A stretch of 33,466 nt of DNA, taken from Clostridia bacterium. GTDB lineage: Bacteria; Bacillota; Clostridia; Christensenellales; Aristaeellaceae. Below the pieces are notes generated by a model, which saw nothing but the letters and a program-made list of their open reading frames with translations, was not told the origin of the DNA and did not search any database. The DNA lies in contig JAFYOR010000059.1 of the NCBI GenBank assembly GCA_017547805.1, forward strand, positions 1-33,466, read 5' to 3'. Both the position numbers and the translations under genes were made by a program. Below, one piece after another: positions 2,724-33,466 of the stretch; within the stretch, counting starts at the first letter, position 1; the number at the start of each line of letters is the position of its first letter.

Positions 2724-2746
2724 AAAAGAGGCCGAAGCCTCTTATG
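2724..2746 (-). terminator. Terminator of murA transcript
   Basis: On the minus strand AAGAGGC-TTCG-GCCTCTT is followed by a run of T. The stable UUCG tetraloop and U tract make this a strong intrinsic terminator. It lies about 190 nt past the murA stop, after the two copies of the 75-nt element. Nothing else is recognised between 2587 and 2723. Confidence 0.85.
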
Positions 2747-2748
2747 TT

Positions 2749-2842
2749 TATCGCATAGGAAATTGCGGGAAATTGCTCGCGTGTGCCATGCTGCACAGCA
2801 TACAGACCCGGGCAGAAGTGGGGGCGGGCACTGCCCGTATTT
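2749..2842. repeat. Post-stop element, copy A
   Basis: Copy A of a repeat whose 75-nt core (2765-2839) aligns without gaps to copies at 2859-2933 and 27124-27198. Conserved blocks on the plus strand are CCATGCTGCA, GAAGTGGG and GCGGGCAC. It contains ATGCTG/CAGCAT and CGGGCA/TGCCCG stems. Copies A and B are in tandem with a 94-bp period, and both lie in the predicted 3' UTR of murA. Confidence 0.8.
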
Positions 2843-2933
2843 TATCGCATTGGAAACTGTATGAAATCGGCCGCGTGCGCCATGCTGCATATCATGCAGG
2901 CTTGGGCGGAAGTGGGAGCGGGCACTACCCGCG
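2843..2933. repeat. Post-stop element, copy B, abuts murA stop
   Basis: The core (2859-2933) ends at the base next to the murA stop codon (2934-2936), so on the transcript strand it begins directly after TAA. Stems: CTGCAT-GAT-ATGCAG (as read on the minus strand) and GCGGG-TAGTG-CCCGC. The copy beside glmS has the same placement. Confidence 0.85.
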
Positions 2934-4211
2934 TTATGCGTCTTTGGAGCGGCGGATGTCCGCGCCGAGGGAAGAAAGCTTGTCCTCCAGATGCTCGTAG
3001 CCGCGGTCGATGAAATGCGTTCCGGTGATTTCGGTCGTGCCCTGCGCCATAAGACCGGCAACCACCAGCGCAGCGCCTGCGCGCAGATCGCTTGCCTCTA
3101 CGGCGGCGCCGTGGAGCTTGGGCACGCCCTGAATGACGGCCGTGCGCTCGAAGACGCGGACGTTGGCGCCCATGCGCTCCATTTCCGCCAGATGACGCAG
3201 ACGGGATTCAAAGATATTTTCAACCACCGTCGAACTGCCCGTCGCCGTGCACAGCAGCGCGCTCATCGGCTGCTGCAGGTCGGTCGGGAAGCCGGGGTAC
3301 ACCTGCGTCTTGAAGGTGACGCCGCGGTGCGCGCCGATGGAGCGGACGCGGATGGCATCGTCCTTTTCATCCACGCGCGCGCCCATTTCAAGGAGCTTCG
3401 CTGTGAGCGCTTCCATGTGCGTGGGAATGCAGCCGGTTACAGTCACGTCGCCGTGCGTTGCGGCGGCGGCGATCATCAGCGTGCCGGTTTCGATCTGATC
3501 GGGAATGACGGCGTAAGGACGGCGCGGCCTCAGGTTCTGCTGGCCGCGGATGCGGATGACGTCCGTGCCGGCGCCCTTGACCTTGCAGCCCATGGAGTTG
3601 AGGAAGTTGGCAAGGTCAACGATGTGCGGCTCTTTTGCCGCGTTGTAGATCGTGGTGATGCCCTGCGCGCGGGAGGCGGCGAGCATGACGTTGATCGTGC
3701 CGCCGACGGTGGGCATATCCAGAAATACGTCGCCGCCGGACAGGCCGTTCTTCGCCTGGGCAAGAACCGTGCCGCCGCGGTCGGTATCCACCTGAGCGCC
3801 GATGGCGCGCATGCCCTTGATGTGCTGGTCAATCGGACGGCGGCCGATGGTGCATCCGCCGGGCAGCGGCACCTTCGCCTCGCCAAAGCGCGCGAGCAGC
3901 GCGCCGATATAGTAGGAAGAGGCGCGCATCCGGCTGCACAGCTCTTCGGGGATGGCGGTTTTTGTGATCGTGCTGGGATCGACTTCCATGATCCCTTCTT
4001 CAGGACTCCATGTCACCTTTGCGCCCAGATAGCGCAGCGTTTCCACGGAGACGATGACGTCTTCGATGTTGGGCAGATTCTCAATTACGCAGGGCGTCTG
4101 GCTGAGAATGGCAGCCGGAATGATGGCGACTGCGGTGTTCTTGCCGCCGCTGACGCGCACGGTTCCCTCCAGCCTCCGCTCACCGGTAATGAGCATTTTT
4201 TCTTCTGCCAT
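2934..4211 (-). CDS. murA: UDP-N-acetylglucosamine 1-carboxyvinyltransferase
   Basis: MurA transfers enolpyruvate from PEP to UDP-GlcNAc, the first committed step of peptidoglycan synthesis, in the cytoplasm. The 425-residue length is normal. Key residues are present: Lys24-Asn25 in GGKNTA, Arg96 in RMRAS, the catalytic and fosfomycin-target Cys120 in PGGCTIGRRP with Arg125, the Asp of YPGFPTDLQQP, Arg of ENIFESR, Arg of DLRAGAAL and the Arg of IDRGYEH. The start at 4211 has GGAGG six bases upstream; the upstream in-frame ATG has none. It has a consensus promoter at 4268-4296 and a terminator at 2724-2746, so it seems monocistronic with an unusual repeat-bearing 3' UTR. A second MurA lies at 31966-33219. 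Confidence 0.97.
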   Translation of the reverse strand: MAEEKMLITGERRLEGTVRVSGGKNTAVAIIPAAILSQTPCVIENLPNIEDVIVSVETLRYLGAKVTWSPEEGIMEVDPSTITKTAIPEELCSRMRASSYYIGALLARFGEAKVPLPGGCTIGRRPIDQHIKGMRAIGAQVDTDRGGTVLAQAKNGLSGGDVFLDMPTVGGTINVMLAASRAQGITTIYNAAKEPHIVDLANFLNSMGCKVKGAGTDVIRIRGQQNLRPRRPYAVIPDQIETGTLMIAAAATHGDVTVTGCIPTHMEALTAKLLEMGARVDEKDDAIRVRSIGAHRGVTFKTQVYPGFPTDLQQPMSALLCTATGSSTVVENIFESRLRHLAEMERMGANVRVFERTAVIQGVPKLHGAAVEASDLRAGAALVVAGLMAQGTTEITGTHFIDRGYEHLEDKLSSLGADIRRSKDA

Positions 4212-26348: not shown

Positions 26349-27041
26349 ATGAAAAAGTGTTTTGCAATGCTGCTGTGCGCCATCATGCTGTGCGCCGCGT
26401 CCCTCGCGCTGGCGGACGGTGCGGAAATCACCGCGCAGGGCACGGCGGAGATTTCTGCCGAGCCGGATATGTTCACCATTACGTCCAATGTTTCCATTTC
26501 GGAAATCACCGTCGCCCGGGCGCAGGAAAGCGTCGCGGCGGTAATTGCGAGCGCGACGACCAAGCTCCTTGAACTGGGCGTCAGGGAAGAGGATATCGTC
26601 ACGCAGGATTTTTCCTATTATCCGGAATACGACTATTCCGGCGATCAGCCCAAGCTGACCGGATACCGCGTCAACCACTCGCTGCGCGTGACCTGCCGGG
26701 ATCTGGGGATGCTGGACAGCGTGATGGCGGTTCTGACCGACAGCGGCATGACGGAAACTTGGAACGTCGGTTTTGACATTTCCACCCGTGGCGAACTGTA
26801 TCGTCAGGCGCTGGCGCTGGCCATCGGCGCGGCGAAGGAAAAGGCGCAGACCATGGCGCAGGCTGGCGGTCTTGAAATCACCGGCATTGAGAGCATTGCG
26901 GAACATGCCTCCGGCGACGTTGCGCGTTATGCCAACGCGACGGAAGACGCTGTGATGATGAAGGCGACGGCAGGCGGCGGCATCCGCTCGGGCGACGTCA
27001 CCGTGTCCGCCAGCGTGACCGTCGTGTTTGACGCGAAGTAA
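26349..27041 (+). CDS. Secreted SIMPL-domain (DUF541/YggE-like) protein
   Basis: A 230-residue exported protein. Signal peptide MKKCFAMLLCAIMLCAASLALA with likely signal peptidase I cleavage after ALA. The rest is a SIMPL/YggE-like domain: ITAQGTAEISAEPDMFTI, a long helix with AQESVAAVIASATTKLLELGV, EEDIVTQDFSYYPEYDY, GYRVNHSLRVTCRD, and the second helix YRQALALAIGAAKEKAQTMA. Family function is largely unknown (linked to stress in enterobacteria). GAGGAGG precedes ATG 26349. Probably monocistronic, with a terminator at 27078. Confidence 0.85.
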   Translation: MKKCFAMLLCAIMLCAASLALADGAEITAQGTAEISAEPDMFTITSNVSISEITVARAQESVAAVIASATTKLLELGVREEDIVTQDFSYYPEYDYSGDQPKLTGYRVNHSLRVTCRDLGMLDSVMAVLTDSGMTETWNVGFDISTRGELYRQALALAIGAAKEKAQTMAQAGGLEITGIESIAEHASGDVARYANATEDAVMMKATAGGGIRSGDVTVSASVTVVFDAK

Positions 27042-27077: not shown

Positions 27078-27109
27078 AAAAAGGATTGCGGCAGGCAATC
27101 CTTTTTTGA
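27078..27109. terminator. Bidirectional terminator SIMPL/glmS
   Basis: AAAAAGGATTGC-GGCA-GGCAATCCTTTTTT, with A tract on the left and T tract on the right, between the convergent SIMPL and glmS genes. On the minus strand it follows the glmS post-stop element. Confidence 0.9.
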
Positions 27110-27123
27110 TTCTGTAAGTAATT

Positions 27124-27198
27124 GCGTGAAATCGGTCGCGTGCGCCATGCTGCATATTATGCAGACTCGGGCGGAAGTGGGCGCGGGCACTGTGCGCT
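27124..27198. repeat. Post-stop element, copy C, abuts glmS stop
   Basis: A 75-nt element aligning without gaps to the copies at 2765-2839 and 2859-2933 (about 80-90 per cent identity to copy B by eye). It ends at the base next to the glmS stop codon (27199-27201), exactly as copy B ends at the murA stop. Contains CTGCAT-AAT-ATGCAG (minus strand) and a weaker second stem, where CCC has become TGC. Confidence 0.85.
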
Positions 27199-29076
27199 TT
27201 ATTCTACTGTCACGCTTTTGGCCAGATTTCTCGGCTTATCCACGTCCAGCCCGCGCTCGCAGGCGATATAATACGCGAGCAGCTGCAGCGGCACAACGCC
27301 GACCGACGCGGCAAACAGCGGATGCGTCCCTGGCAGACCGATGCAGAAATCCGCTGCTTCTGCAAGCCGGTCATCCGCCTGCGCCGACAGCGCAAGGACG
27401 CACGCGCCCCGGCTTTTTACCTCCGCGATGCCGCTGAGCATTTTGGCGAAAACCTGCGGCTGCGTCGCCGCGCCGATGACAAGCGTGCCATCCTCAATCA
27501 GGCTGATCGCGCCGTGCTTGAGCTCGCCTGCGGCATACGCCTCGGAGTGGATGTAGCTGATTTCCTTGAGCTTGAGGCTGCCCTCCATGCACAGCGCATG
27601 GTCCAGCCCGCGGCCGATGAAAAAGACGTCCCGGCAGGCGGCAAAGGTGTTGGCAAAGCGCTGTATGCGCGTTTTTTCTCCGAGCGCCTGCTTGATTTTT
27701 CCGTCAAGCGCCGTCAGCGCTTCCAGCAGCTCCTGTTTTTGCGCCGGGCTGATCGCCGCACGCCGGCTTGATAGATGCACCGCCAGCAGATACAGCGCGG
27801 CAAGCTGCGCGGAGTAGGCCTTCGTCGTCGCCACGGCGATTTCCGGTCCGGCGTGGGTATAGAGCACCGCGTCCGCTTCCCGCGCGATGGAGGAACCCAC
27901 GACGTTGACGATCGCCAGCGTCTTCATGCCCTTTTCTTTGCAAAGGCGCAGCGCGGCGAGGCTGTCCGCCGTCTCTCCGCTCTGGCTGATGAGCACGCAG
28001 AGCGTGCCGGGCTGCACCGGCGCATTGCGGTAGCGCAGCTCGCTGGCCAGCTCCGCGCTGCAGGGAATGCGCGCGAGCGCCTCCGTCACGCCGACGCCGA
28101 CCAGCCCGGCATGATACGCTGAGCCGCAGCCCACAAACAGCACCCGCTGGATGCGCCGGATTTCCTCGTCCGTCAGTCCCGTTTCTGTCAGGTCGGTATC
28201 GGGCGCGCCGTTCCGCGAAACGATGCGCGGGGAAAGCGTATCGCGCACGGCGGCGGGCTGTTCGTGAATTTCCTTGATCATGAAATGCTCATAGCCGCCC
28301 TTTTCGGCAGCCTGCGCATCCCATGTGATGTGCATCATGGGCTTGCTGATGCGCTCGGCATCGATGCTGTAGATATCCAGCGTGTCTTTCGTTATCCTGG
28401 CGATTTCCATGTTGTCAAGATAGACCACGTCGCGCGTATAGGAGAGCACCGCCGGCACGTCGGAGGCGAGGATATGCCCGTGCGCTTCCCCCGTGCAGCG
28501 TCCGACAACCAGCGGGCTGTCCCTTCGCGCGGCGTAGACCACGTCCGGCTGATCGTGAAAAAGGATGCCCAGCGCATACGACCCCTGAAGCCGGAGCATC
28601 GTCGTGCGGATGGCGTGCACCGCGCGCTCCTGCGGCGAATTCCCGTCCTCCCCGGCATAGGCGCAGTCCAGCAGCAGCGCCGCGGCCTCCGTATCCGTCT
28701 GCGTATGGAAGCGGTAGCCGCGCCGCTCCAGCATGTCGCGGATTTCCTGATAGTTTTCGATGATGCCGTTGTGGACGATCACCACGCGCTTTTCCCGCGA
28801 ATAATGCGGATGCGCGTTTTCGGCGCTCGGCTCTCCGTGCGTCGCCCAGCGCGTATGCCCCACGCCGCTCATGCCGCAAACAGCCTGCCCGCCGCCGGTC
28901 ATATCCATCAGGCGGTCAAGACGCCCCTTCGCCTTGATGACCTCGATATGCGCCGACGATGCGTCGCGCACCGCAATGCCGGCCGAGTCATACCCCCGGT
29001 ATTCCAGCTTTTTGAGTCCGTGAAGCAGGATGGGCGCCGCCTGCGCCCCGCCCGCATATCCGACAATTCCGCACAT
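27199..29076 (-). CDS. glmS: Glutamine-fructose-6-phosphate aminotransferase
   Basis: Makes glucosamine-6-phosphate from fructose-6-phosphate and glutamine, the entry to UDP-GlcNAc and cell-wall synthesis. 625 residues, usual size. The N-terminal glutaminase domain has nucleophile Cys2 in MCGIVGY, RGYDSAG, HTRWATHGEPS and HNGIIENY. Two SIS sugar isomerase domains follow with GCGSAYHAG, SQSGETADS, ATTKAYSAQ, SLKLKEISYIHSEAY and the C-terminal KPRNLAKSVTVE. The ATG at 29076 is needed to expose Cys2 and has GGAGG eight bases upstream. No glmS ribozyme core is visible in the leader. The 3' UTR carries the 75-nt element shared with murA. Confidence 0.98.
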   Translation of the reverse strand: MCGIVGYAGGAQAAPILLHGLKKLEYRGYDSAGIAVRDASSAHIEVIKAKGRLDRLMDMTGGGQAVCGMSGVGHTRWATHGEPSAENAHPHYSREKRVVIVHNGIIENYQEIRDMLERRGYRFHTQTDTEAAALLLDCAYAGEDGNSPQERAVHAIRTTMLRLQGSYALGILFHDQPDVVYAARRDSPLVVGRCTGEAHGHILASDVPAVLSYTRDVVYLDNMEIARITKDTLDIYSIDAERISKPMMHITWDAQAAEKGGYEHFMIKEIHEQPAAVRDTLSPRIVSRNGAPDTDLTETGLTDEEIRRIQRVLFVGCGSAYHAGLVGVGVTEALARIPCSAELASELRYRNAPVQPGTLCVLISQSGETADSLAALRLCKEKGMKTLAIVNVVGSSIAREADAVLYTHAGPEIAVATTKAYSAQLAALYLLAVHLSSRRAAISPAQKQELLEALTALDGKIKQALGEKTRIQRFANTFAACRDVFFIGRGLDHALCMEGSLKLKEISYIHSEAYAAGELKHGAISLIEDGTLVIGAATQPQVFAKMLSGIAEVKSRGACVLALSAQADDRLAEAADFCIGLPGTHPLFAASVGVVPLQLLAYYIACERGLDVDKPRNLAKSVTVE

Positions 29077-29170
29077 GTTTCTATCCTCCACGCTTGATTT
29101 GATTATCCTATGCCGCGCGGGAGGGAAGTATGTAAGTTACCGTCGGTTTTGCGTCACTGCCTGATTACAT

Positions 29171-33325: not shown

Positions 33326-33374
33326 CGGAAGAGGAAGCGGGCACGGCCCGACGAAAAGTGAGAAAACGCAAAAC
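33326..33374. repeat. 49-bp direct repeat, copy 1
   Basis: Perfect 49-bp repeat of 33418-33466, 92 bp apart. It begins CGGAAGAGGAAGCGGGCACG and ends GAAAACGCAAAAC. Contains CGGGC-AC-GGCCCG pairing. Confidence 0.9.
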
Positions 33375-33417
33375 CATCGGCCACGTACGCAGAAACAGCA
33401 AAACATGCAGAGTGTTT

Positions 33418-33466
33418 CGGAAGAGGAAGCGGGCACGGCCCGACGAAAAGTGAGAAAACGCAAAAC
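33418..33466. repeat. 49-bp direct repeat, copy 2
   Basis: Identical to 33326-33374 and ends exactly at the end of the window, so an array may continue beyond. The 43 bp between the copies (33375-33417) are unlike them except for GAAACAGCAAAAC, which echoes the repeat's end. Confidence 0.9.

Follow-up and report, generated by a model that had tools for sequence, protein, structure and literature searches.

Small, probably mobile repeats with a REP-like 3′ hairpin lie mostly behind intrinsic terminators in a genus of uncultured Clostridia

The repeats found behind murA and glmS in a contig of an uncultured Clostridia bacterium belong to a family that we read, with a probability of roughly 85%, as small non-autonomous mobile repeats of about 94–100 nt, known so far from one genus of uncultured Clostridia. 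The copies at murA and glmS are most likely members of this mobile family, not a switch for those two genes. The window, i.e., the whole stretch of DNA that was analyzed, comprises 33,466 nt (contig JAFYOR010000059.1, positions 1 to 33,466).

Results

Repeat copies in the window and the build of the unit

Three copies aligning without gaps (2765–2839, 2859–2933, and 27124–27198; copies A, B, and C) had been described from the sequence, and all three were recovered as claimed. Copies B and C start one base past the TAA on the transcript (murA stop 2934–2936, glmS stop 27199–27201, both TTA on the + strand), and on each transcript a terminator hairpin follows the gene, as had also been proposed. 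The identities of MurA (TIGR01072, 514.6 bits) and GlmS (TIGR01135, 742.3 bits) were confirmed. The core motif is found above chance, with five matches against 0.14 expected for a pattern made from the copies with at most three mismatches; three of the five are the copies themselves, one lies on the opposite strand of copy C, and one lies elsewhere. The repeat is real, but its length of 75 nt did not hold, since the unit extends to 94–100 nt. The features are as follows.

2728..2741, murA terminator read on the − strand: terminator hairpin GAGGC-CGAA-GCCTC, read from the sequence; upstream terminator test positive for C48:2750
2750..2844, + strand: unit A, extending the copy at 2765–2839 (covariance model R1, 99.9 bits)
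2844..2938, + strand: unit B, following unit A head to tail and overlapping the murA stop at its right end (TTA 2934–2936; R1, 104.4 bits)
2918..2932, + strand: hairpin GCGGGC ACT ACCCGC on the 3′ side of unit B, with innermost bases that do not pair; read from the sequence, the helix covarying in the family
27083..27101, between the convergent gene 26349–27041 and glmS: terminator hairpin GGATTGC...GCAATCC, read from the sequence; upstream terminator test positive
27109..27203, + strand: unit C, its right end overlapping the glmS stop (TTA 27199–27201; R1, 105.0 bits)
27183..27197, + strand: 3′ hairpin of unit C, GCGGGC ACT GTGCGC, read from the sequence
33353..33449, + strand: diverged unit, part of a tandem array that the contig end truncates (R1, 29.2 bits, E = 2.5e-6), the repeat running into its flanks

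On the + strand, the tail TTATGTTT of the hairpin at 2728–2741 stands immediately before unit A, and the T-tract 27102–27107 of the hairpin at 27083–27101 precedes unit C. The unit is better read on this strand, along which a T-tract is followed by a conserved left end like ATCGCATAGGAAATTGCGTGAAA, a variable middle, CGGAAGTGGGAGCGGGC ACT GCCCGC, and TTTTTT. Its 3′ end is GTGGnnGCGGGC-ACT-GCCCGC-TTTTTT; the general form of the 3′ module is GTGGnnGCGGGC-ACn-GCCCGC plus a T-tract, laid out as GTGG, 2 nt, and a 6-bp helix closed by the ACn loop. With the unit defined on the + strand, the murA and glmS transcripts read it backwards, hairpin first. Throughout the genus the left end is conserved, and its boundary is sharp. 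By eye, no terminal inverted repeats were seen in the units, and a T-tract is present on both sides. Two units with different left flanks (L252 and L253) have the right T-tract variant TTTCTT in common, thus the right T-tract travels with the unit.

The 3′ helix of the family covaries. Its covariation score of 0.389 compares with a maximum of 0.128 when the helix is slid along the alignment and is reached by 0 of 500 shuffles. All six pairs, and 36 cells, are changed on both sides; the number of pairs so changed is the weakest of the five measures taken on this alignment (A3, which retained about six chance rows), and 19 of 500 shuffles reach it. On average, the unit middles do not fold more strongly than shuffles. 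After near-duplicates were merged (112 to 44), the 44 representative middles had mean z of −0.29 and −0.36 on the two strands, with z below −1 in 18% and 32%, although strong folding is seen in a few middles of the type found in genome G008 (z −2.5 to −4.2). For the three copies in the window, folding on both strands is at the level of shuffled sequences (z −0.89 to 0.37). Since the helix covaries and the middles lack excess folding, the conserved feature is the 3′ hairpin rather than an RNA fold spanning the entire unit. Covariation of a middle hairpin between subtypes was considered as well, but the average folding of the middles does not support it.

A repeat family in one genus

Using BLAST, copy B gave 46 matches in its own genome (G000) at E ≤ 10. 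A covariance model (R1) was built from 18 copies, and the search of the genome and its relatives that had been suggested earlier was run; it returned a family of 97 matches at E ≤ 1 in 68 places of G000. Four of the 97 fall in the window, the diverged fourth unit included. Twenty matches of the subtype originally described score at least 78 bits, and the other 77, with related ends and other middles, score at most 52 bits. None lies wholly within a called gene, genes having been called by a codon-usage caller built for this analysis, with approximate gaps and tRNA genes uncalled. Eighteen places hold two to six units, head to tail on one strand.

Among relatives, 12 of the 28 other genomes of the genus have matches at E ≤ 0.01. 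In the rest of the family one of seven genomes matches, by a weak 43-nt match only, and elsewhere in the order 0 of 24 genomes match the unit; stricter filters were used in this search of relatives, by which weak matches were lost. A two-box pattern was found in 51 stretches in seven MAGs among 84,980 species genomes, from which records of the own genome were possibly excluded. All seven MAGs are titled Clostridia or Clostridiales bacterium, and four of the titles also name a source (rectum samples, taken from water deer, sheep, and goat). No match was found in viral contigs (pattern search), plasmids (a unit of genome G010 as query), or phages (unit B as query).

Sister units with the same 3′ module and another left end (GTTTCC...GGAAAC) were observed at L133 (G000:C56:8219–8561), L140, and L141. 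The tandem period at L133 is 124 nt, the sister units at L140 and L141 adjoin TAA, and the upstream terminator test is negative in all three. At L221:856–1060 there are REP-like 3′ modules that lack the left part, and three of these repeat every 26 nt.

The window itself terminates inside a tandem array of the diverged unit (33353–33466), and further contigs of this genome (C26, C38, C50, C59, C66, and C110) likewise start or stop close to such units. Because several contigs begin or end near or inside unit arrays, the repeat probably breaks the assembly of this genome, and it would account for several of its contigs ending in short arrays.

Recent spread in one species

Recent spread of the unit was observed in at least one species, represented by G010. 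This genome carries 21 units, spread over 19 unrelated places; 17 of the units are 90–100% identical to their consensus and four are 74–83% identical. Its sibling G026 is 91% identical to it over the murA locus and holds decayed units elsewhere in the genome. For 16 G010 sites, a counterpart was found for 14 in G026 and for 10 in a second sibling, G019. With R1, all 14 of the G010 loci searched proved to contain units and none of the 25 sibling loci did; 22 of the latter are informative, as L270 and L272 end near the site and L280 is off target. The alternative of a mobile repeat, which had been raised alongside a regulatory one, is thus borne out by a burst of near-identical units and by 0 of 22 informative sibling loci being occupied.

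Four of the 24 sibling alignments were judged by eye clean enough for reading the junction. Two pairs (L255/L260 and L243/L266) show a plain insertion at the end of the T-tract and are the cleanest empty sites, and a third (L242/L276) shows an insertion plus an indel. In the fourth (L240/L279), TGA comes after about 22 nt in the empty site, and in the filled site the T-tract of the unit forms TAA, the C-terminus KASRK being the same. In another pair (L250/L268), G026 carries a different repeat at the very post-terminator position where G010 has the unit; this position may be a general landing place for repeats. The different repeat in G026 also ends in CCGCTTTTTC.

Selection rather than transposition could in principle amplify such a unit, if it served the host as a backup terminator and were not a selfish repeat. 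Intact units do end in a hairpin plus T-tract, and the helix is maintained by compensatory changes. Yet a burst of near-identical whole units with a conserved left end fits poorly with this idea, as do arrays of up to six units, which exceed the need for a backup, and we consider it very unlikely.

Insertion downstream of intrinsic terminators

Units with the standard left end lie directly behind the T-tract of intrinsic terminators, in the orientation of the terminator. In G000, a terminator was found directly upstream in 36 of 65 testable places, as compared with 0 of 65 mirrored right flanks, 4 of 624 shifted positions, and a background of 82 of 990 random positions 30–100 nt behind stops. 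The pass rate is 29 of 37 for places where the left end is of the standard kind and 15 of 19 for the originally described subtype. Against this stand 29 failures among the 65 places: 8 come from the 37 places that have the standard left end, and 21 from the 28 with other left ends (7 of 28 pass); given these 21, the sister class with other left ends does not seem to need a terminator. In G010, each of the 19 unit places is immediately behind a T-rich tract and 17 pass a strict hairpin test, the remaining two resembling, by eye, terminators with larger loops.

Units also occur behind a 6S RNA gene (L241) and behind genes for tRNA-Arg (L130), tRNA-Glu (L142), and tRNA-Met (L152), loci that have no stop codon; the insertion target is therefore the terminator rather than the stop codon. 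Judging from its sequence, the 3′ hairpin with its T-tract would itself act as a terminator. Insertion would then leave termination intact and recreate its own target, so that it would be nearly neutral and arrays could grow. The enzyme that moves the unit would presumably act in trans.

Abutment on stop codons

The proposal that the element inserts at stop codons captured a real association, but the commoner anchor is the terminator T-tract at the other end of the unit. Where the right neighbor is convergent, its stop lies directly at the hairpin of the element in 19 of 35 places, versus 3 of 54 background convergent-pair terminators (counted from both strands) within 6 nt of the opposing stop (P = 2.6×10−7, Fisher's exact test). 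The abutting stops are TAA in 17 of 19 cases, versus 180 of 330 in the background (P = 0.003). The further proposal that the element may itself supply the TAA fits one orthologous pair, the change from TGA to TAA with the unit described above (L240 versus L279), an example suggesting that the A-run of the unit can supply TAA. Insertion behind a T-tract does not account for stops on the right that abut exactly, and the abutment is thus real but only partly explained.

No link to the amino-sugar pathway

The original prediction had considered a 3′-UTR regulatory RNA or sRNA acting on two genes of one pathway, and had allowed that the shared pathway could be chance. The 3′ hairpin with its compensatory changes, the few well-folding middles of the G008 type, and the position of the copies next to murA and glmS would suit an RNA controlling amino-sugar genes. 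However, no unit was found by R1 at 24 murA and 22 glmS loci of relatives, the 3′ flanks of which were also read by eye, and the only R1 matches among all the murA and glmS loci are the two of the own genome. Of the two marks of a cis-regulatory element that were considered, conservation at orthologous genes was thus seen at 0 of 24 murA and 0 of 22 glmS loci, and conserved structure beyond the 3′ hairpin was not found among the 44 middles. Rfam gave no match in the window.

The 17 other genes whose stops abut a unit are of unrelated or unknown function (four have no family at E = 1e-10), and include genes for a thioredoxin reductase-like protein, bile salt hydrolase, an alcohol dehydrogenase-like protein, Obg, D-Ala-D-Ala ligase, release factor 3, a phosphotrehalase-like protein, and endonuclease III. 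Since the murA and glmS loci of relatives lack the unit and the other abutted genes are unrelated, the amino-sugar link was rejected and is attributed to chance. A conserved RNA was rejected also, as the window copies and the average middles fold like shuffles. With units behind tRNA and 6S genes in addition, regulation of the pathway by this element is hardly credible, and its case serves as a caution against taking a repeat for a regulator merely because it follows two genes that share a pathway.

The genus apparently has two types of GlmS (window 27199–29091), relatives being either 62–69% or 53–58% identical, as opposed to 78–86% identity for the main MurA orthologs; the GlmS C-terminus LAKSVTVE is the same in all 22.

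Search for a mobilizing enzyme

Y1 transposases (Y1_Tnp), group II introns, reverse transcriptases, and IS110 elements were sought, and none is consistently present with the unit; no mobilizer was found. In G000, an 83% complete MAG, there is no match to Y1_Tnp, group II intron RNA, reverse transcriptase, or IS110. G010, a 96% complete MAG with young copies, has no Y1_Tnp match and, among the four candidates, only one reverse transcriptase, of no named group. Neither G008 nor G017 has a reverse transcriptase or IS110 match, and Intron_gpII has no match in G000, G010, or G017. The lone reverse transcriptase of G010 (L362:1889–3238 on G010:C148; 449 aa) best fits general RT and DRT-like profiles, and its neighbors of 515 and 235 aa have no match in Pfam or PADLOC.

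A longer element with the same ends was not found in 348 kb round the units, which hold 67 full units, 16 left-only ends, and 34 right-only ends, the single ends being, by eye, diverged units or chance. From 84 left-end matches in G010, G017, and G026, 13 regions were followed, none with a right end at the distance of a longer element.

It is possible, if on the unlikely side, that the unit is of the REP type and owes its movement to a RAYT/IS200-like (Y1) transposase, for which GTGG plus the hairpin would be the site; terminators would be favored as places where single-stranded hairpins form. The 3′ module GTGGGAGCGGGC-ACT-GCCCGC matches nearly every letter of the REP of Pseudomonas putida KT2440, TGTGGGAGCGGGC(a/g)TGCCCGC, in the form tabulated in PMC2817692. 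Y1_Tnp is present in 16 of 29 genomes of the genus, including the unit-rich G008. Open reading frames with HUH and YI(D/E)ENP motifs, which we take to be RAYT-like, are found in G003 and G009, and a match in G019 has an internal stop (loci L406, L407, and L408). Speaking against such a transposase are the lack of Y1_Tnp matches in G000 and G010, the head-to-tail arrays, and the absence of any unit beside the RAYT-like genes within the 3.5–4 kb examined.

Copying could also proceed with no dedicated enzyme, if a nascent strand stalled at a terminator hairpin and switched template at T-tract microhomology, so that the segment between two terminator T-tracts would be copied, from DNA or RNA. This is consistent with a unit that starts just after one T-tract and finishes with the next, with the lack of inverted ends by eye, with the different repeat of G026 at the post-terminator position L250/L268, and with the lack of a consistent mobilizer. 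On the other hand, the sharp left end conserved over the genus suggests a recognized end, and the TTTCTT variant moves with the unit; we hold this explanation to be unlikely. A broader form, which seems to us more doubtful than either, is a self-targeting element that has no enzyme of its own: any segment from behind one terminator T-tract to another T-tract might be copied to other terminators, the nascent strand stalling at the hairpin and re-priming on T-tract microhomology, either from DNA or from terminated RNA as a bacterial SINE-like retrocopy. If this were true, terminators would generally serve small repeats as points of both arrival and departure. Should a mobilizer or a template-switch mechanism be found for the non-autonomous repeats described here, it would show how small repeats colonize terminators with little harm to the host.

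Discussion

It had been held at the outset that copies scattered regardless of stop codons or pathway, with no compensatory changes, would mark an ordinary REP or MITE. The copies are indeed scattered, but compensatory changes do exist, in the 3′ hairpin, and the family is a variant of the REP/MITE kind. A literature search returned no report of it, most subscription journals lying outside the coverage of that search.

The likeness to MITEs lies in the small size, the non-autonomous nature, and the species-specific bursts, whereas terminal inverted repeats were not seen by eye and no autonomous partner with shared ends was found. The MIRUs of mycobacteria, of about 50–100 bp, likewise form head-to-tail units with ends overlapping stop codons; they are located between co-directional genes of operons, and the unit instead lies behind terminators.

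As in REPs and REPINs, a tag (GTAG or GTGG) is joined to a GC-rich hairpin in the same layout, and there are many extragenic copies (97 matches in 68 places). The near-identity of the 3′ module to the P. putida REP, as far as the tabulated form goes, may reflect kinship or convergence. Unlike REPs, the unit is about 95 nt long, has its own conserved left end and a terminal T-tract, and is placed behind terminators; no Y1 transposase was found in the own genome or G010, both incomplete MAGs. The alternating orientation of BIMEs and REPINs is absent, the 18 multi-unit places being head to tail on one strand.

The target choice resembles that of group IIC introns, which, according to a review (PMC4424553), insert after intrinsic terminators and in the same orientation; the unit shows this placement at 17 of 19 places in G010 and, among places of the own genome that have the standard left end, at 29 of 37. 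It differs from these introns in its length of about 95 nt and in having no match to a ribozyme (domain V/VI), and an Rfam scan of 41 element loci gave no group II intron match. The family adds to these systems a REP-like repeat in Clostridia, here without the transposase that moves REPs elsewhere, and with a preference for the kind of target that has otherwise been described for group IIC introns.
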